From assembly GCF_004319545.1 (NCBI RefSeq), contig NZ_CP036313.1, positions 3,970,501 to 4,034,500 of the forward strand: a stretch of 64,000 nt of DNA, read 5' to 3'. Shown here in pieces: positions 13,482 through 25,374 of this stretch. The DNA comes from Desulfobacter hydrogenophilus. GTDB lineage: Bacteria > Desulfobacterota > Desulfobacteria > Desulfobacterales > Desulfobacteraceae. The notes beneath the pieces are model-generated. The model was not told the origin of the DNA and searched no databases. It saw nothing but the letters and a program-made list of their open reading frames with translations. Position 1 is the first letter of the stretch. Each line of letters starts with the position of its first letter. The position numbers and the translations under genes are program-made.

Positions 13482-13748
13482 AATAATACTCCTGATTTAG
13501 GATTTTAATATAGTACCCATCCGGAAACAGTCTTTTTGCCCAACTTTCATCTGCTTTGAACTTCAACAAAAATTCTTATTTCTCTGGACAGACACCAATC
13601 TAAATTTATTTACGCTTTGATTATGTTGTGCACCGCAAAGGGTTTCGTCAAGCCATTATATTTTTTTGTCCACAGCCGGACAAAATCCGGTCTAAACCGG
13701 AACAACCATCTTTGAATAATTAAAGAGAATCCGTGATTTTTTCCACCA

Positions 13749-14435
13749 TTACTCTTTTTTGTTTTCCCAGAAATTACGGCTTTCCTGGAGAAGGTCATTG
13801 ATATCGTCATCATCCATATCCTCGCCGGTTTCCCTATCCCCATTTTCCAAACCAATATCTGTCGGTTCATCAACGCTTAAATCTTCCACATCATCCTCTT
13901 TGGGTAACTCATCAATCAATTCATTGCTATCCTCTGCTTCAATGATATCTGGGTCGTCCAGATCAAATGCAGATTCATCTTTAAGGTCTTCAACTTCCAG
14001 TCCGGACTCGGTATTCGGGATATCATCTGACAAATTTTCCGGTTCCAGATCCACCGGCTGGGTTTCTCCGGGCGCCTTATCCGCTATATCATCATAATCG
14101 GGAAGGTTAATGGACAGATTCTCATCCAGGTTTGATTTTGACGCGTCATCATTTTCAGCCTGCAGATTTTGTTTGGGTGCCGTACTTTCACTATCTTCAA
14201 GCAGATTTCCGTCCCGATCAAAAAGCAGGCTGCCATTCAGATTGATTTCATAATCAAGCCTGAATGCCACGTTATTGTCATGCACAACAATCCGGCCGCC
14301 TTTGGGCAACAGCGCGCTCGCGGTAAGGCGTTCCTTGAGCAGATCCTTAACTGCATCAAGGTCCAGATCTCTTTGAACAGATGCAATGAGGTCTTGTTCT
14401 CCGTTCAGTATAACTTGGGGATCTGTAATTCTCAT
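13749..14435 (-). CDS. Highly acidic protein of unknown function, last gene of the ABC operon
   Basis: 228 residues. The N-terminal ~85 residues form a small globular-looking domain (QVILNGEQDLIASVQRDLDL, LPKGGRIVVHDNNVAFRLDY). The remaining ~140 residues are extremely rich in Asp and Glu with few hydrophobics, so probably disordered. AAGGAG lies six bases before the ATG. Its start is 15 bases past the stop of the receiver/binding-protein fusion, so it is very likely co-translated with it. No known domain recognised. An acidic tail of this kind could bind a basic partner or compete for a metal ion; this is speculation. Confidence 0.75.
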   Translation of the reverse strand: MRITDPQVILNGEQDLIASVQRDLDLDAVKDLLKERLTASALLPKGGRIVVHDNNVAFRLDYEINLNGSLLFDRDGNLLEDSESTAPKQNLQAENDDASKSNLDENLSINLPDYDDIADKAPGETQPVDLEPENLSDDIPNTESGLEVEDLKDESAFDLDDPDIIEAEDSNELIDELPKEDDVEDLSVDEPTDIGLENGDRETGEDMDDDDINDLLQESRNFWENKKE

Positions 14436-14450
14436 GCATAACTCCTTAGT

Positions 14451-15824
14451 TTATCGATTGAATGCAATGTTTGCAAAATTGGGTTCAATGAAACGTTCAA
14501 GGTCAATGATTTTGCCGATTTCCATGACATCATGCATATATTTTTGAATTTTATCAAGATCTGCCGCTTCCGGATAGAGTCCGTCCCAACGGATGGCCAT
14601 GGGTTGGGAAAATACATTTTGAAGCACCTGGGGATTCAGGCCCATTTTACCTTCAGGGTCCAGGAAATTTACCGCAATGTTCGCGGCCCGGGCCTTGTCG
14701 TTTTCAATATACTCGCCGGTATCCACCAGCAGGGATACAAACTCCTGAACAGCTTCAGGATGTTTTTGGATAAAGTCCTTTTGCATGGCCACAATACAGC
14801 AGGGATGATTTTCCCAACGCGTGGCTGAATAAAATTCCAGATTGCCGATTTCCCCCTTGATGGCTTTGGTGGCAACCGGTTCTGCAACCATGAATCCACC
14901 CACATCCTCATTTTCTTTCATAATGCCGGGCATTTTGATGGGGGGAACCACCTCAAAGCGCACATTTATCGCTTTTTTCCCGGGCACACCGGGTTTGAGC
15001 CCCAATTCTTTTAAAAATTGATGTGCAAGCATGTGGTGGACCGACATTTTATGGGGAATATCCACAACCTTATATTTGTAAAAGCTTTGCAAAGAGTCAA
15101 ACCTGTGATCATAATGCCGGGAGCGTACAAATGTGGACCCGTTTTTGTGGGCATACAGAACCAGCTGAATGGGGGAGTCATAGGCAAACAGATCCATGGC
15201 AATGGGTGCCAGAACGAAGGCACAGTCGATTTCTCCGCTTTCAAGGCCTTCCTGTATGGGATTCCATCCACCCATCAGGCTGGTAGAAAGGTCAAAGTGC
15301 TGGGGTTCCACATCCCCTTGGTTAATCCGGTGTTTCAGGGCGCCTAAAGCAAGATGGTCGGTGATCTGAATATGGGCGACGTTGAGTTCAACGCGACCTC
15401 CGATGATGGCTCTCTCTTTGGTTACCCGCTGTTTTTTTATGCCTCCGGAGAAAGCCGCTTCAATGGCCTTTTTTATTTCGTCCTCGTTAAACGGCTTCGG
15501 GCAATGGGCATTACCTCCAGCATCCTGGATGATTTTCTGCTGGCCCATGTCAGCCTGGGCCGTGGCCATGATGAAAGGAAGGTCCTTAAATTCCTCGGAG
15601 GCCCTTAATTCTTTGAGAAACCCAAGGCCATCCAGCGTGGGCATGTTCCAGTCGGATATGACAAGATCAGGTTTTTCAGCTTTGACCTTTTCAAGGCCGT
15701 CGGCACCGTTCACCGCCATAATAAGGTTTGAAAATCCGGCTTTCCCCAGGATTTGTTTGAACATTATCCGCATGGTGCCTGAATCATCTGCCACAACAAT
15801 TTTAATATTCGGGTCTACCGCCAT
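14451..15824 (-). CDS. CheY-like receiver fused to an NMT1/NrtA-type substrate-binding domain
   Basis: 457 residues, no signal peptide or membrane segment. Residues ~7-125 are a complete receiver: VVADD, phospho-acceptor Asp58 (SDWNMPTLDG), Thr88, Lys110 (CPKPF). A 20-residue linker is followed by a periplasmic-binding-protein type II domain (~145-440) of the nitrate/sulfonate/taurine family: VELNVAHIQITDHLALGAL, ESGEIDCAFVLAPIAMDLF, VDIPHKMSVHHMLAHQFL, GFMVAEPVATKAIKG and WENHPCCIVAMQKDF. Such domains normally work outside the membrane; here it is held in the cytoplasm under a receiver. AAGGAG precedes the ATG. It sits in an operon with permease, ATPase and two sibling binding proteins, so it may report internal ligand or gate the transporter. 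Function is inferred. Confidence 0.9.
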   Translation of the reverse strand: MAVDPNIKIVVADDSGTMRIMFKQILGKAGFSNLIMAVNGADGLEKVKAEKPDLVISDWNMPTLDGLGFLKELRASEEFKDLPFIMATAQADMGQQKIIQDAGGNAHCPKPFNEDEIKKAIEAAFSGGIKKQRVTKERAIIGGRVELNVAHIQITDHLALGALKHRINQGDVEPQHFDLSTSLMGGWNPIQEGLESGEIDCAFVLAPIAMDLFAYDSPIQLVLYAHKNGSTFVRSRHYDHRFDSLQSFYKYKVVDIPHKMSVHHMLAHQFLKELGLKPGVPGKKAINVRFEVVPPIKMPGIMKENEDVGGFMVAEPVATKAIKGEIGNLEFYSATRWENHPCCIVAMQKDFIQKHPEAVQEFVSLLVDTGEYIENDKARAANIAVNFLDPEGKMGLNPQVLQNVFSQPMAIRWDGLYPEAADLDKIQKYMHDVMEIGKIIDLERFIEPNFANIAFNR

Positions 15825-15881: not shown

Positions 15882-16754
15882 TTAAGCATCGTCAGCCCAT
15901 GCCCAGCTGAACCTATGCTGCAATTTTTGACAAACTCTGTCGAGTATAAATCCCAGTATGCCGATGGCAATGATTACAGCCATAAGTTTATCGTATTCCA
16001 TGGTATCCCTGGCATCGTTAATCAGATACCCCAACCCTGATGATACCCCTAAAAATTCAGCCGGGACCAAAACTATCCATGCAATCCCCAGTGCCAGCCT
16101 GATGCTGGTCATCATATGGGGGATGGAATATGGAATAACAATCGTTTGAATGAGTTGGACGTTATCGGCACCTTGGTTCAAAGCCATTTTTATCCACTGG
16201 GGGTTAATGTCCATGACACCAATGGCTGTGTTCAGTATTATAGGACAAATTGTCGCCATTACAATCAAAAAATGAACAGCGGATTCAAAGCTTGTAAATA
16301 AAAGCAGTGCAAGGGGCATCCAGGACAGGGGACTGATCATTCGTACGAATTGAATCGGCGAATATGTGAGCTTGCGAAGACGTGTAAAGAAACCGATCAG
16401 TACACCCAATGGCAGCCCGATAACTGCTGATATGGCGATGCCTAGAACGATTCTACGCAGACTTGCAAAAACTGACACCCAGAATTTGGGATGCTGAAAG
16501 GCGTCTGCCAGAGCCGCAAGGGTTGGGCCGGGTAGAAATCCCTTAAAATGGTAGAATTCGGGGCGGGTAAAGACGAACTGCGTAACCGCGGCCCAGGCAA
16601 AAGCAAACAAAACAAGCCCGGCCAGTTCGTATTTCCAACCCGACCATACCCGGGTAAAAAAAGAGGATAACTCAACTTCTACGGCTCTGTCCTGGGAATT
16701 TTTTTTAATTGATTTCAACGATTTCTTCCCTGGTAAATACATTTTCCATATCAC
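15882..16754 (-). CDS. ABC transporter permease, NitT/TauT family
   Basis: Up to 290 residues, with about six membrane helices (e.g. ELAGLVLFAFAWAAVTQF, IVLGIAISAVIGLPLGVLIGFF, SAVHFLIVMATICPIILNTAIG, LMAVIIAIGILGFIL). The EAA-type loop that contacts the ATPase is seen at MALNQGADNVQLIQTIVIPYSIPHMMTSIRLALG. It forms the membrane channel for the neighbouring ATPase and binding proteins. The listed start overlaps the binding-protein gene by 50 bases; a TTG near 16716 with GGGAAG upstream would give a shorter and perhaps truer N-terminus. Substrate unknown: sulfonate, nitrate, or a pyrimidine-type ligand are typical for the family. Confidence 0.9.
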   Translation of the reverse strand: MIWKMYLPGKKSLKSIKKNSQDRAVEVELSSFFTRVWSGWKYELAGLVLFAFAWAAVTQFVFTRPEFYHFKGFLPGPTLAALADAFQHPKFWVSVFASLRRIVLGIAISAVIGLPLGVLIGFFTRLRKLTYSPIQFVRMISPLSWMPLALLLFTSFESAVHFLIVMATICPIILNTAIGVMDINPQWIKMALNQGADNVQLIQTIVIPYSIPHMMTSIRLALGIAWIVLVPAEFLGVSSGLGYLINDARDTMEYDKLMAVIIAIGILGFILDRVCQKLQHRFSWAWADDA

Positions 16755-17907
16755 ACTGGCAAAATTTTTTTATCCCACCCATGTCGTCCAAAGCCTTTCT
16801 GACAAAACGGTCATCCACAAGCTGTGAAACAGCTGTGTTGGTATCAAGGGTCGTCAGAAAATCTGTGTTGCCCTCAACCTTAGTTTTTTTCATCTGTTCC
16901 AGAATAAACCGGGTGGCGGATGGAAAAGGAAAAGGCTGAAAACCGATTCTTTCTACATTCCACTGGGGGTGTATCAGTTCTTTTTCGGGAATGGCACCAA
17001 AAACCTTGTAAAGAACTGATTCATTTACCGGCAAAAATCCTTCGCCGTCTCTGCTGAGCAGGTGGGCGGTTTCCTTAGGATTCTGAAGACACCACACCTG
17101 GGCTCTTACAATGGCGTTTATCGCCTTTTGAACGACTATTGGGCTGTCTTGGATCAGATGATCATTGGTTACGATAACACAACAAGGATGATTTTTCCAA
17201 ATATCTCCTGAATATCGCATGATTTTTGCCGAAAATTTTTCCTGGGCCAGGGCGTTGAAGGGGTCTGCCACGATAAATGTGTCTATTTTTTTTCCCAAAA
17301 GCGCCTGGGGCATATCCGGGGGCGGCAAGATAAACAAGTTCACCTCGTGGGGGGCAAGCTTTGAGCCCGGCGGGCGAATTACCGGTTTAAGCCCCTGGAC
17401 CTGAAGGCCCAACTGCATGACCAGGTTATGCATGGAGTACCATGAGGGCACGGCCACCTGTTTACCTGAGAGATCTGCGAATCGGTCGATGCCGGAATCC
17501 GCTCTGACAGTGACCGCGCTGCCGTTGGTATGATCCCAGGCCAACACTTTAATAGGTATATTCTGCTTGAATCGCATCCACACGGGGATGGGGAAAAGCA
17601 TGTGAACCAAGTCAAATTTGCCCGTTAAAAAAGATTCGGAAAGTATATTCCAGGAACGCACCATGACCGGGCGTTCCACATGAAGTCCTTCATGGGAAAA
17701 ATAGCCCAGACTGTATGCAACAAGCAAGGGTGTCGCATCCGTAATGGGCAGATAACCTATTCTTAACGGTCTTTTTTTTGCTGCTGCCAGACACGGAAAT
17801 ACCATGGGGGTACAGGCGGCTGCACTTGCTGTCCGTATTGCTGTTTTTATAAAATTTCGCCGTGAAATGCCGTCGGGGCTTGCCGATTTTACGTGGTTAA
17901 ATTTCAT
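16705..17907 (-). CDS. Tat-exported substrate-binding protein, NitT/TauT family
   Basis: 400 residues. The twin-arginine signal SRRNFIKTA (Arg16-Arg17) and hydrophobic stretch to about residue 43 predict folded export to the periplasm. The mature part is an NMT1/SsuA-like binding protein: LRIGYLPITDATPLLVAYSLGYF, GKQVAVPSWYSMHNLVMQLGL, DTFIVADPFNALAQ and IWKNHPCCVIVTND. The HPCC motif is shared with the receiver-fused protein of this operon. Its start overlaps the stop region of the ATPase gene by 11 bases, showing translational coupling. The Tat route suggests cofactor binding or rapid folding, which is unusual for this family. Confidence 0.9.
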   Translation of the reverse strand: MKFNHVKSASPDGISRRNFIKTAIRTASAAACTPMVFPCLAAAKKRPLRIGYLPITDATPLLVAYSLGYFSHEGLHVERPVMVRSWNILSESFLTGKFDLVHMLFPIPVWMRFKQNIPIKVLAWDHTNGSAVTVRADSGIDRFADLSGKQVAVPSWYSMHNLVMQLGLQVQGLKPVIRPPGSKLAPHEVNLFILPPPDMPQALLGKKIDTFIVADPFNALAQEKFSAKIMRYSGDIWKNHPCCVIVTNDHLIQDSPIVVQKAINAIVRAQVWCLQNPKETAHLLSRDGEGFLPVNESVLYKVFGAIPEKELIHPQWNVERIGFQPFPFPSATRFILEQMKKTKVEGNTDFLTTLDTNTAVSQLVDDRFVRKALDDMGGIKKFCQCDMENVFTREEIVEIN

Positions 17908-18673
17908 CTGCCAGTCTCCGTTTGACTGAATATGCGATTTTAAATCGATTGAGAATATCGGTTCTCAGCGCTTTAATTCCAGGGTCATGCTGGTTTCTGG
18001 GGTAGGGCAGATCAATATCAAAAATATCGGAGATGCCGGCAGGGGAACCTGCCAGGACCACAATTTTATTTCCAAGACGTATGGCTTCGTCAATATCATG
18101 GGTGACAAACACCGCGGTAAAGCTTTCCGACATCCACAGGTTGACCAGTTCCTCCTGGATATGAGCCTGGGTAAAGGTGTCCAAGGAGGCAAAGGGTTCG
18201 TCAAGCAGTAGGACCTGGGGATGTCCCACCAAAGCCCTGGCCAGGCAGACCCGCTGGGCCATCCCTAGTGATAATTGGCTGGGTTTCGCGTCCGCCGCAC
18301 CTGTCAGCCCCATAATTTCTATAAATTGGTTTACCCGGTATTCCAGGTCCTGGGTGTCTTTTCTGATTTTACAGCCATAGGCCACATTCTCCTTAACGCT
18401 GAGCCAGGGGATCAGTGCCGGCTGCTGGAACAGTATGGAACGTGACGGGTGGATGCCGGCAATGGGGCTGCCGTCCACCAGGATCCGGCCGCAGGTCGGA
18501 TTCTCAAGCCCAGCCAGCATGTTCAGCAAAGTGGTCTTCCCACAACCCGATTCACCTAAGATAATTACAAAATCTCCTGGATTGATGGAAAAGGAGATAT
18601 CCTTAATAACCTGTCGCTGTGTTTTTCCCGGCCCGTCGTAGGATTTACAGATTTTTTCAATATCTATTTTCAA
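17897..18673 (-). CDS. ABC transporter ATP-binding protein, NitT/TauT family
   Basis: 258 residues with all ATPase landmarks: Walker A GESGCGKTT (~41-49), Q-loop LFQQPALIPWLSV, signature LSLGMAQRV, Walker B VLLLDEPFASLD and switch His VFVTHDIDEA. FASLD and the short length match SsuB/TauB/NrtD proteins. It drives transport through the permease at 15882-16754. The start is TTG at 18673, three bases after the stop of the upstream binding-protein gene, with no good ribosome-binding site, which points to coupled translation. Confidence 0.95.
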   Translation of the reverse strand: MKIDIEKICKSYDGPGKTQRQVIKDISFSINPGDFVIILGESGCGKTTLLNMLAGLENPTCGRILVDGSPIAGIHPSRSILFQQPALIPWLSVKENVAYGCKIRKDTQDLEYRVNQFIEIMGLTGAADAKPSQLSLGMAQRVCLARALVGHPQVLLLDEPFASLDTFTQAHIQEELVNLWMSESFTAVFVTHDIDEAIRLGNKIVVLAGSPAGISDIFDIDLPYPRNQHDPGIKALRTDILNRFKIAYSVKRRLADEI

Positions 18674-18676
18674 GTT

Positions 18677-19504
18677 CTATGATTCCGATAAAATAGTATG
18701 AATAAATTCCGGCCTGATAAATCCATGGAGATCCGTTCCGGTCGGCATGCCTTCCATGGTTGTACACATATAATCGAGCACGATGTTTAAAATTTTCATA
18801 TCCGGCACCAGAAGTTTTGGGTTATAGGTAATCCCCGATGTTTTAAGTGCCTTTTGCGTCTGGGAGGCAGAAAGGCCTAAAAAAGAAGCTGACAGCTGTT
18901 CAATACCCTTTTCGGCGGTGTCCGGGGATGCCATGTACCGGTCAAGCTGCCGGGCACTATCCAGGAGGCAGTTAACCATCAGACCTAAATTTTTCCCTTT
19001 GGTCTTAAGCAGGTCCTGGTGTACCACAAAAACGCTACCCGGATGATCCTTCCACAGATCCCTGGAAATGAGCAGAGGTCTGAATCCCTTTTTTTTAAGT
19101 TCAACGTCACCAAAAGGGGCAGGGCAGATAAAAGCTGCAATATCGCAGTCAAGATCCGCATTTGCCATTTCCGGCATCAGGGCATACGGTACCGATTCAA
19201 TGTCGACGCTTTCTCCCAATTTTCCCAAATTTGCGATTTTAAGATTTCCTGCACTCAGCAGCCTGTGCACAAGCATATGCTGAATACTAAGTTTGTGCGG
19301 GATCAAAACACTTTTTCCTTTAAAATCCGCCAATCGTCGAATCTGTTCGGGTACAATGATTCTGCTGCCTGCCCTGTGGGTAAACATAAGCATGGATATG
19401 GCCAAACCCTTGTCAGACAGGTACATGGCCTGGGCAATATCCATGAACGCAGCATTGATATCCCCGGATAAAAACCCTTTTTCCACCTGTCCCCATGAAC
19501 GCAT
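18677..19504 (-). CDS. NMT1/SsuA-like binding protein without signal peptide; true start unclear
   Basis: 275 residues from the first ATG, but homology clearly begins upstream. The same frame is open to 19660 and reads LTIRIGHFISIDHLILGIAL before the ATG, matching AHIQITDHLALGAL in the receiver-fused paralogue. No ATG, GTG or TTG exists between the in-frame stop at 19661-19663 and the conserved start of the domain; only ATT and CTG codons are available. The remainder aligns well: VLIPHKLSIQHMLVHRLLSAG against VDIPHKMSVHHMLAHQF. HPCC is replaced by HPGS. It is the first gene of the ABC operon and has no room for a signal peptide, so it is either cytoplasmic, started at a non-standard codon, or a 5'-damaged gene. 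Confidence 0.75.
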   Translation of the reverse strand: MRSWGQVEKGFLSGDINAAFMDIAQAMYLSDKGLAISMLMFTHRAGSRIIVPEQIRRLADFKGKSVLIPHKLSIQHMLVHRLLSAGNLKIANLGKLGESVDIESVPYALMPEMANADLDCDIAAFICPAPFGDVELKKKGFRPLLISRDLWKDHPGSVFVVHQDLLKTKGKNLGLMVNCLLDSARQLDRYMASPDTAEKGIEQLSASFLGLSASQTQKALKTSGITYNPKLLVPDMKILNIVLDYMCTTMEGMPTGTDLHGFIRPEFIHTILSES

Positions 19505-22098: not shown

Positions 22099-25000
22099 AT
22101 GAAAATATCGATACGGTGGGCAATGGTTCTTGGTTGCCTTGGTCTCATCTGGGGAATGCAGATTCTGATCACTTCGTCCTCTTATATTTCATCCCAGCGG
22201 ATGCTGGCCGGACATGCCTGCGACGTGATGCAGAACATTGCGGACCTGACCATGACCCAATCCAGAAACCATCTCCAGCTGGCCCAGAGGGCGGCCCTTT
22301 TGACCAAACGCCTGCTGGCCTCCGAGGTGGTGGGAAGGCGAAATCAGCACTATGACGTTCTTGAGCATTATTTTTTGGATCAATTATCCTTGTATTCCCA
22401 TTTTGCCGGTATTTATATCGGTATGCCCAATGGTGATTTTTTTTATGTCAACCGCAGTAATGCGCAAACCCCCGGCGGGTTTCGGACCAAGGTAATTGAT
22501 CATTTCAATGGTGTGAAAAAAATCCGGCTGATCTGGCGCAATTCGGACGGCAGCATGGTTAAAACCTTGGAAAACCCCAGTGATACCTATGATCCCCGGC
22601 AGCGACCCTGGTATCAAAAAGCCCTTGCCGAACGGGAGATTATCTGGACGGACCCTTACATTTTTTTCTCATCACAAAAGCCCGGAATCACGGTGGCAGG
22701 CCCAATTTTCAAAGCAAACGGCCAGTTACAGAGTATTGTCGGTGTGGATATTGAAATTGATGATTTATCCACCTTTATCAGTCGTTTACGGATTGGTAAG
22801 CATGGCCGAGCCTTTATGCTCAATAATAACGGCGATGTGGTGGCATTTCCCGACATCTCAAAAATTAAACAGGTCGAAGACACCGAAGCCCATCGTTTCA
22901 GAATGGTTAAAATTGATGAATTGGACGATGAATTGAGTCGTTCTGCCTTTAGTGCCATCCAGTGGCAGCGGACAGAAACCGGGCTGTTGAAACTTGATCA
23001 CTCCCAGTTTGCCAAATTCACTCATAACGGAGATGTCTACAATACAATGTTCACCCAGTTTACCGACTCACACTGGCCCTGGATGTTCGGTGTGTATATA
23101 CCCGAAAATGACTACTTGGGTGCACTTAAGGAAAATCGTTCGTTTAATATCGGGATTACCCTGGTTCTTTCGGTGATTGCCACCCTGGTGGGTTTACAGT
23201 TGTTTCGCAGCATCACACGGCCCTTGATGGGGCTGGAAAAAGAGGCGCTTGCCATAAAGCAGCATGATTTGACTGCCAGTTTCAACACCCGCTCCATATT
23301 TAAAGAGATAGACGAAACCGCTGCCGCATTTTCACAGATGAAGTACTCGCTGCAAACCAGTGAAAAAAAGTATCGCCAAATTTTTGAAAATATTCAGGAC
23401 ATCTATTTTGAATGTACCATTGAAGGCGAGATTTTAGAAATAAGCCCCTCTGTAGAGGGGTTAATCCAGCAGGATCGCAAAAATATTATCGGCATCAATC
23501 TCACGCAGTTTTATAAAAATGCAGATGATCACCAGCGCTTTTTATCCAAAATTTTTGTTGACGGATCTGTGAGTGATTGGGAAGTCGCGTTGGAAAATGA
23601 ACACGGCGAAATCGCCTATGGTTCGGTCTCGGCCACGCTGAAACGCGATGAAGCCGGTGATGCGGAAAAAATTATCGGTTCGCTGCGTATTATTACCGAT
23701 AGAAAAAAAGCCGAGTTCAAACTGCGCCGGTACCAGGATCAGCTCGAGGATCTTGTAGAAGAACGCACACAGGACCTGCAGAAGAGCAATGGACAATTGC
23801 GCAATGAAATTGAAACACGTAAAGAGAAAGAAGAGGCGCTTAGACGCAGTGAAGAAAAATATCGGTCCATCATAGAAAACACCAACAACGGCTATTACGA
23901 AGTGGATCTCGATGGTCGTCTGACTTTTTTCAACGATTCTTTGGCCGTGATTCTGGGATATTCGGTTGAAGAGCTTCAAGGGATGGACTATTCTATATTG
24001 CTGGAATCAGAGGGTTCGCGGCAACTACCAGAAAAATCACCTGATACCTATCGATCCGGAGTGAACGGTAACCTGTCTCGTCTGACAATTACCCGTAAGG
24101 ACGGTGACCGGCGGACCGTGGACGTCTCGACTGCTCCAATTTTTGATAACAACGGTGGAAAGATAGGTTATCGCGGCGTTGTTTTGGATATCAGCGAACG
24201 GCTTAATGCCGAAGCGGAAAAGCAAAAACTCCAAGAAAGACTGCGTCTAATTCAGCGGCTGGAGGGCATCGGAACCCTGGCCGGCGGCGTGGCCCATGAC
24301 TTTAATAATTTATTGATGGGTATTCAGGGGAATATATCGTTGATGATGCTTAAAACGAACCCTTCAGAGTATCATTATAAAAAATTGAAAAGTATTGAGT
24401 CCTGCGTCAGCTCCGGAACCAAACTCACCCAGCAACTGCTCGGATTCGCACGGGGCGGCAAGTATATGGCCAAGTCTTTAAATTTTAATCAGATTGTCAT
24501 GGACACCGCCCGCATGTTCGGTCGTACGCGCAAAGAGATTCAGATTGAGGAAAATATAGAGCATGGTTTGTGGGCGGTTGTAGCGGATAAAAACCAGATT
24601 GAGCAGGTCCTACTCAACATTTACATTAATGCATGGCAGGCCATGCCCGACGGGGGCTCGGTCGTCATTGATGCCAAAAACATGGTGCTGGATGCCTTAT
24701 TTTCCAAGACTTTTGACATCCAGCCGGGACGATATGTATGCGTTTCAATCTCTGATACCGGCATCGGTATTGATCCTGCAATCCAGACACGGATATTTGA
24801 ACCGTTTTTCACCACCAAGGGAATGGGCCGCGGCACCGGACTGGGCCTTGCGTCCGCCTATGGCATTATCAAAAATCATGACGGTGCCATTGATTTTGTC
24901 AGCCAACCGGGCAAAGGCACCACTTTTTATATTTATCTGCCTGCCTCGGATGGTGATATAGAAACTGAACCCGCCTTGTGTGAAATGAGTTCAAAGGGGT

Positions 25001-25374
25001 CTGAAACCCTGCTGCTCATTGATGATGAAGAGGTCATCCTGCAAGTGGGCCAACCCATGCTTGAATCACTGGGATACAAAGTGATGTCTGCAACGGACGG
25101 TAAAACAGCGGTGGATATTTTTCGTCGGTTTTCCGGGGAAATTGATTTGGTAATCCTGGATGTGATCATGCCGGGTATGAGTGGCAGTGCTATTTTCGAC
25201 GCGTTGAAAAACATTAATCCGCAGGTCCAGGTGCTGCTTGCCAGTGGATACAGCCTCAGCGGACAGGCTGAAGATATTTTGTCACGGGGATGCGTCGGTT
25301 TTATCCAGAAACCGTTTTCCCTGGAACAAATCAGTGTCAGGTTGCGCGGCATTTTTGACAATCAGGATCTTTAA
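22099..25374 (+). CDS. Membrane hybrid sensor histidine kinase (Cache-HAMP-PAS-PAS-HK-REC)
   Basis: 1,091 residues. A membrane helix at ~8-28 and another at ~350-370 flank a periplasmic Cache sensor region with DPRQRPWYQKALAEREIIWT and GPIFKANGQLQSIVGVDIEI. Then come HAMP (~372-425), PAS (~430-545), a coiled coil, and PAS (~590-705). The H-box is [19 protein letters not shown] with the phospho-His, followed by an ATPase domain (~825-945: NQIEQVLLNIYINAWQAMPDG, SDTGIGIDP, GRGTGLGLASAYGII). A C-terminal receiver (~970-1085) has LIDDEE and phospho-Asp in LVILDVIMPGMSG. GAGG precedes the ATG. It is a phosphorelay sensor for an unknown extracellular small ligand. No partner regulator is adjacent. 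Confidence 0.95.
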   Translation: MKISIRWAMVLGCLGLIWGMQILITSSSYISSQRMLAGHACDVMQNIADLTMTQSRNHLQLAQRAALLTKRLLASEVVGRRNQHYDVLEHYFLDQLSLYSHFAGIYIGMPNGDFFYVNRSNAQTPGGFRTKVIDHFNGVKKIRLIWRNSDGSMVKTLENPSDTYDPRQRPWYQKALAEREIIWTDPYIFFSSQKPGITVAGPIFKANGQLQSIVGVDIEIDDLSTFISRLRIGKHGRAFMLNNNGDVVAFPDISKIKQVEDTEAHRFRMVKIDELDDELSRSAFSAIQWQRTETGLLKLDHSQFAKFTHNGDVYNTMFTQFTDSHWPWMFGVYIPENDYLGALKENRSFNIGITLVLSVIATLVGLQLFRSITRPLMGLEKEALAIKQHDLTASFNTRSIFKEIDETAAAFSQMKYSLQTSEKKYRQIFENIQDIYFECTIEGEILEISPSVEGLIQQDRKNIIGINLTQFYKNADDHQRFLSKIFVDGSVSDWEVALENEHGEIAYGSVSATLKRDEAGDAEKIIGSLRIITDRKKAEFKLRRYQDQLEDLVEERTQDLQKSNGQLRNEIETRKEKEEALRRSEEKYRSIIENTNNGYYEVDLDGRLTFFNDSLAVILGYSVEELQGMDYSILLESEGSRQLPEKSPDTYRSGVNGNLSRLTITRKDGDRRTVDVSTAPIFDNNGGKIGYRGVVLDISERLNAEAEKQKLQERLRLIQRLEGIGTLAGGVAHDFNNLLMGIQGNISLMMLKTNPSEYHYKKLKSIESCVSSGTKLTQQLLGFARGGKYMAKSLNFNQIVMDTARMFGRTRKEIQIEENIEHGLWAVVADKNQIEQVLLNIYINAWQAMPDGGSVVIDAKNMVLDALFSKTFDIQPGRYVCVSISDTGIGIDPAIQTRIFEPFFTTKGMGRGTGLGLASAYGIIKNHDGAIDFVSQPGKGTTFYIYLPASDGDIETEPALCEMSSKGSETLLLIDDEEVILQVGQPMLESLGYKVMSATDGKTAVDIFRRFSGEIDLVILDVIMPGMSGSAIFDALKNINPQVQVLLASGYSLSGQAEDILSRGCVGFIQKPFSLEQISVRLRGIFDNQDL

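Follow-up and report, generated by a model that had tools for sequence, protein, structure and literature searches.

CheV consists of a CheW domain followed by a receiver. CheWS of Treponema denticola is a CheW-fused intracellular sensor of S-adenosylmethionine (PMC10653840). NasS, an NrtA-like cytoplasmic sensor of nitrate and nitrite, works with the receiver-ANTAR protein NasT (PMC3795266). The C-terminal regulatory domains of NrtC and CmpC are known cytoplasmic domains of the NMT1_2 kind; that of CmpC is a nitrate sensor that lifts the block on the ATPases (PMC13249358), and E. coli carrying one BCT1 design could grow once this domain was removed, though not through the removal alone (PMC11349869). 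Here we describe a protein of Desulfobacter hydrogenophilus that joins a CheY-type receiver (REC) to an NMT1_2 solute-binding domain. Its gene lies in the window, a stretch of 64,000 nucleotides (NCBI RefSeq assembly GCF_004319545.1, contig NZ_CP036313.1, positions 3,970,501 to 4,034,500) to which the coordinates below refer. We lean, by a small measure, towards the view that this fusion senses a solute inside the cell, as a soluble protein, and feeds a CheA-type pathway. Its closest working precedents are the CmpC domain, NasS and CheWS.

14451..15824, reverse strand: REC-NMT1_2 fusion, open reading frame of 457 aa with an ATG start
15459..15800, reverse strand: receiver domain of the fusion (Pfam Response_reg, residues 9-122)
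14676..15389, reverse strand: NMT1_2 solute-binding domain of the fusion (Pfam, residues 146-383)

In the fusion, residues 9-122 match Response_reg (E 1.3e-21) and residues 146-383 match NMT1_2 (E 5.6e-25), both above the Pfam gathering cut-offs. The receiver is predicted to adopt the CheY fold, and the NMT1_2 domain, which has a two-lobed fold in addition to its profile match, extends in the model to about residue 457. Inspection of the N-terminus, hydropathy and the model, in which the first receiver strand starts at residue 9, revealed no export signal. The initial annotation, made from the sequence before any database search, had described a complete CheY-like receiver with Asp58 and Lys110 joined to an NMT1/SsuA-type domain without a signal peptide, and this description holds. 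It had also asked whether the join might be an assembly artefact. It is genuine, because the listed homologues (120 of 1474) all have both domains and the fusion occurs in 60 of the 86 family genomes. Within the genome the closest relative of the receiver is a single-domain receiver of 136 aa (41%, 87 bits; the next scores 58 bits), which from its sequence seems to resemble CheY.

Conservation was assessed in 320 full-length sequences, comprising 169 short forms (no long C-terminal tail) and 151 long ones. The set was drawn from 240 listed proteins and 80 open reading frames at genomic loci, with 8 of 329 matched rows excluded for partial cover, and includes some identical sequences. In the receiver the acid pair is D13/D14, and the phospho-accepting Asp, the Thr and the Lys stand at the canonical places D58, T88 and K110; D14, D58, T88 and K110 are invariant (320/320). 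Equally invariant in the NMT1_2 domain are H151, D156, H157, W187, N188, H226, G229, S230, P257, H258, S261, H263, M298, A314, E315, P316, W337, H340, P341, C342 and C343. T155 of the ITDH signature is present in 319 sequences and its other letters in all 320. Judging from the fold, the signature residues would line the cleft. Short and long forms carry identical signature letters, which suggests that they bind one kind of ligand. The W, GS and HPCC positions are common to the fusion and the exported binding protein of its operon (16705-17907). At the place of HPCC the NrtC domain reads QPKK, with KK opposite the CC of the fusion. A metal or metal complex is a possible ligand, since the domain is rich in His and Cys and 3un6 contains zinc.

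A cytoplasmic domain of the NMT1_2 fold is not new, since NasS and CmpC/NrtC are known; what appears new is that it is joined to a receiver, in some forms with CheW as well. The initial annotation had noted that binding domains of this family normally face the periplasm and had called an intracellular ligand sensor or transporter regulator of this kind a new arrangement, a claim that these precedents narrow to the receiver combination. Like the fusion, NasS is an NrtA-like binding protein without a signal peptide that is paired with a receiver (PMC3795266). NasS and NasT, however, are two proteins, and the NasT receiver carries ANTAR, whereas the fusion is one chain with an intact phospho-site in which ANTAR was not found. 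The NrtC and CmpC regulatory domains, which are among the closest solved structures to the NMT1_2 domain of the fusion, are joined to an ATPase; that of the fusion is joined to a receiver, and the ATPase of the operon (258 aa) is separate. CheWS resembles the fusion as an intracellular small-molecule sensor attached to a chemotaxis system, but its sensor is a CheR-like domain, and a receiver is not mentioned in the available text (PMC10653840). The Staphylococcus aureus ATP-binding cassette (ABC) binding protein 3UN6, with zinc in its structure, is a stand-alone ligand-binding component of an importer, unlike the fusion. Among the matches listed by literature searches there was no description of the REC-NMT1_2 architecture, with or without CheW, and a study of CheA architectures lacks the term NMT1 (PMC10782961). 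Automatic annotation does record the architecture, as 'multifunctional response regulator receiver/nitrate/sulfonate/bicarbonate ABC transporter'.

CheA-type signalling is indicated by the relatives of the fusion, which include REC-NMT1_2-CheW proteins, one REC-NMT1_2-CheA protein and copies in che clusters, and by the CheD and Hpt neighbours that many relatives have but the window locus has not. Most distant relatives (43-52% identity) have a C-terminal CheW domain. Pfam found it in five of ten (loci L056, L057, L060, L063, L068), and in all three relatives checked from the wider phylum (L096, L102, L104); L055, L061 and L067 end early, and L059, in which CheW was not found, is cut by a contig end. 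At L070 (7980-11192) REC-NMT1_2 continues into a CheA-type kinase core that has two CheW stretches, which places the solute-binding domain on the kinase itself. A search with one REC-NMT1_2-CheW protein, in which the 8000 best candidates were scored, gave 1543 matches; CheW is present in 119 of the best 120, and several of these are named 'chemotaxis protein CheW'. In a phylum sample of 395 genomes (at least 80% complete), 20 matched at E<=1e-70, that of D. hydrogenophilus included. The other 19 contain 20 such places, each with a tail of 180-248 residues; CheW was checked by Pfam in three of the 20, those named above. These long relatives are like CheV in having CheW and a receiver in one chain, but the order is reversed, receiver first, with the solute-binding domain between. 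Neighbours of long forms include genes for methyl-accepting chemotaxis proteins (L059, L065), CheA (L060) and the flagellar protein FlgD (L058); at other loci, such as L061, L063, L064 and L068, no chemotaxis gene was seen nearby. A DUF169 gene adjoins the REC-NMT1_2-CheW gene in two loci (L057, 9982-10884; L060, 7027-7929).

Three short copies of the fusion sit within CheA gene clusters (L044, L051, L117), unlike that of the window locus, which does not encode CheA. At L044, in genome G052, Pfam identified CheA and CheX, and sequence reading and clustering added CheW, a canonical CheD, HDOD, CheB, CheR, CheY and a second CheA-like reading frame. At L117, in genome G057, CheA and a CheD homologue were found by Pfam, while HDOD, CheY, CheB and CheR were recognised from their resemblance to those of L044; a receiver-sigma54 activator gene follows the fusion. 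In both clusters a CheD homologue, at L044 listed in addition to the canonical CheD, directly precedes the fusion. L051, the second copy of Desulfobacter latus, has a CheA-type gene on either side; a kinase-receiver gene immediately precedes the fusion and a receiver gene follows it.

In the window the fusion belongs to an operon transcribed from one strand, with the remaining genes and an adjacent hairpin as follows.

18677..~19621, reverse strand: second NMT1_2 protein, no signal peptide (Pfam, reading frame)
17897..18673, reverse strand: ABC ATPase, 258 aa, no C-terminal binding domain (Pfam, reading frame)
16705..17907, reverse strand: exported NMT1_2 binding protein with a twin-arginine motif and HPCC in common with the fusion (Pfam, reading frame)
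15882..16754, reverse strand: ABC permease, BPD_transp_1 (Pfam, reading frame)
13749..14435, reverse strand: acidic protein, 228 aa (sequence comparison)
13686..13701, reverse strand: terminator-like hairpin, 48 bases past the acidic gene

The order of transcription is second NMT1_2 protein, ATPase, exported NMT1_2 protein, permease, fusion and acidic protein, with intergenic gaps of 3, -11, -50, 57 and 15 bases. As had been annotated, permease and ATPase lie beside the fusion, upstream on the same strand. The two binding proteins were called paralogous; both are NMT1_2 proteins, but they are unalike, one exported and the other probably cytoplasmic from its sequence. The start of the latter is uncertain, as similarity continues upstream of the first listed ATG at 19504, and a CTG at about 19621 is proposed. 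Two of the three NMT1_2 proteins of the operon thus appear cytoplasmic, since both the fusion and the 18677 protein lack a signal peptide. All 39 cluster members of the exported protein have the twin-arginine RRxF within their first 90 residues. In the acidic protein a conserved N-terminal part of about 80 aa and an equally conserved C-terminal helix (DI..ILkESR.FW) are joined by a variable acidic linker, and a loose pattern for the helix matches 45 of 45 members. The protein is not strictly tied to the fusion, and most family genomes have a shorter second paralogue. The hairpin is a possible end of the operon; terminator-like hairpins are about equally frequent in shuffled sequence (nine found, against a mean of 7.3).

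A protein search with the fusion gave 1474 matches at E<=1e-3, and the best 120 all contain both domains over 99-100% of the query. The family is apparently large, widespread and undescribed, and database names are often merely 'ABC transporter substrate-binding protein' or 'response regulator'. In public genomes 63 loci were detected, among them L072 with only a part and L075 with only a weak receiver match. Clusters over these loci and the window held 44 permeases, 40 ATPases, 39 exported binding proteins, 38 cytoplasmic binding proteins (a separate L044 gene included) and 45 acidic proteins, with many loci cut by contig ends. Within the family, 61 full-length copies of at least 69% identity occur in 59 of 86 genomes, and in G009 the gene is split across two contigs, which makes 60. 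The initial annotation had raised the question of whether the fusion always lies beside the transporter operon. It does so usually, 54 of the 61 copies being within 1.5 kb of the exported protein. The seven exceptions are copies on separate contigs (G010, G033, G080), one slightly past the cut-off (G002) and three in che clusters (G012 second copy, G052, G057 second copy).

This company raises the rather unlikely alternative that the fusion regulates the ABC transporter directly, its NMT1_2 domain docking on the ATPases and gating them by internal solute, as CmpC/NrtC domains do, with phosphorylation as a tuning step. The fusion, however, is not joined to an ATPase here, most of its relatives beyond the operon lineage have a CheW tail, and three of the short copies belong to che clusters. 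In G052, ATPase, exported binding protein and permease genes lie elsewhere without a fusion beside them and the acidic gene at a third place, while the copy of the fusion is in a che cluster.

The history of the CheW tail was traced on a tree of 86 rows, from which near-identical short loci had been thinned and all of the 120 short listed proteins left out; 25 long listed proteins were sampled, and two outgroup rows were added. One group contains 25 short forms, the window included, with L044 and L051 basal and the spirochaete L055 as the nearest row outside; the short forms L061 and L067 fall elsewhere. The short/long label requires three changes, or two when seven long-branch rows are removed. 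Constraining the short forms, or the long forms, to a single group gave approximately unbiased (AU) p values of 0.06 and 0.08. CheW was thus probably lost in the operon lineage.

The cysteine at the active place of CheD is catalytic. Of the 32 loci with sufficient sequence, 22 have a CheD homologue no more than 1.2 kb upstream of the operon. Among 26 CheD members from the loci, the catalytic place holds Ser in 24, Gly in one (L044) and Cys in one (L047), the motif being GSS, GSG and GSC, respectively. The Cys-bearing CheD of L047 is the copy in a separate che cluster; the homologue of L117 has Gly. As the usual GSC reads GSS, these proteins are probably not deamidases. This CheD family occurs at L018, L020, L021, L026-L032, L036-L039, L041, L042, L047, L048, L053, L054, L062, L066, L073 and L074, mostly just upstream of the operon. 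One kind of CheD thus adjoins the fusion in operon and che-cluster loci alike. D. hydrogenophilus itself has four CheD genes, which are only 24-31% identical to this kind.

The initial annotation noted that no kinase is encoded in the operon and that the phosphate donor must lie elsewhere. This is correct, and two CheA kinases (845 and 1070 aa) are encoded at other places in the genome, which also has two short CheW genes; a CheW search of the genome revealed no CheV-like protein. Downstream of the acidic gene, 15 of 42 loci have an Hpt gene, and HKLKG is present in 14 of the 15. These stand-alone Hpt genes suit an improbable alternative in which the fusion serves an ordinary hybrid histidine kinase as response regulator and is phosphorylated by relay through Hpt without a chemotaxis link, the binding domain being a ligand-gated output. 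The kinase-receiver gene directly before the fusion in L051 would agree with this, as would a Cache-PAS-histidine kinase-receiver hybrid gene in the window (22099-25374), about 6 kb from the fusion. The latter is on the other strand and outside the operon, and nothing was seen that ties it to the fusion; the CheW- and CheA-fused relatives and the che-cluster copies also argue against an ordinary phosphorelay.

A single-chain counterpart of NasS-NasT, in which the ligand would release or block a receiver acting on operon expression, is very improbable. It has a model in the cytoplasmic NrtA-like sensor NasS and its receiver-ANTAR partner (PMC3795266), and the receiver-sigma54 activator gene after the fusion in L117 would fit it. 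So would the fourth strong NMT1_2 protein of the genome, a stand-alone protein of 315 aa without a signal peptide whose gene adjoins one with a borderline MerR match. Pfam, however, found no RNA- or DNA-binding domain, ANTAR included, in the fusion; a genome-wide ANTAR search gave no match, and its controls likewise gave none. Pairs of a stand-alone NMT1_2 gene without signal peptide and a MerR-like gene are recorded at L088 (7142-8089, 8176-9828) and L044 (9713-11971), in the D. hydrogenophilus genome and in a che cluster.

In the CheA-linked sensor that we favour, the C-terminal NMT1_2 domain would bind, in the cytoplasm, the solute imported by the neighbouring ABC importer or a close product, and the N-terminal receiver would accept phosphate from a CheA-type kinase, perhaps by way of a stand-alone Hpt protein in some relatives. 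Ligand binding and phosphorylation would affect each other, and the internal solute level would be read into the CheA pathway, as taxis or another CheA output. That the ligand is shared with the importer and that CheA is the donor are our inferences, as are the output and the direction of coupling. The sequences contribute the fusion itself, its invariant phospho-site and signature, the lack of an export signal, the conserved operon and the kinship with CheW and CheA proteins. A phosphorylation-controlled intracellular ligand sensor had been proposed at the outset, and the anatomy agrees with it; the CheA-type kin had been missed.

Several observations weigh against this proposal. The fusion has no CheW match (Pfam, E<=0.001) and thus differs from CheV, which has CheW in the chain. 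A CheD neighbour is missing at the window locus and at nine others of the 32 testable loci. The window locus also has no Hpt neighbour, and the nearest Hpt matches of the genome, 29-33% identical, lie elsewhere. With the AU values above, loss of the CheW tail is no more than probable, and adjacency to a transporter suits transporter control equally well. The exported binding protein was found in all 60 fusion-bearing family genomes, while two fragmented genomes (G044, G079) have it without a close copy of the fusion and 24 have neither; this co-occurrence (86 genomes, Fisher's p 2.6e-19), which itself speaks for the proposal, is inflated by shared descent.

A broader interpretation can be offered tentatively, at somewhat less than even confidence. 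REC-NMT1_2 and REC-NMT1_2-CheW proteins may be an undescribed class of CheV-like devices through which a CheA array directly reads the level of an imported metabolite within the cell. The CheW-less form of the Desulfobacteraceae would have moved into the importer operon, a single protein coupling uptake flux, internal pool and kinase output, with the Cys-less CheD, Hpt and the acidic tail protein as accessories in many relatives.

Names such as 'response regulator' hide such proteins in databases, which is a warning in itself. Chemotaxis is usually described in terms of membrane receptors that sense solutes outside the cell. Metabolism-dependent taxis requires an internal reading, the molecular basis of which is often unknown. 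With an intracellular binding domain, an intact receiver and often CheW, the fusion family offers a concrete and testable device for such a reading, and it probably links nutrient uptake to chemotaxis-type signalling in sulfate-reducing bacteria.
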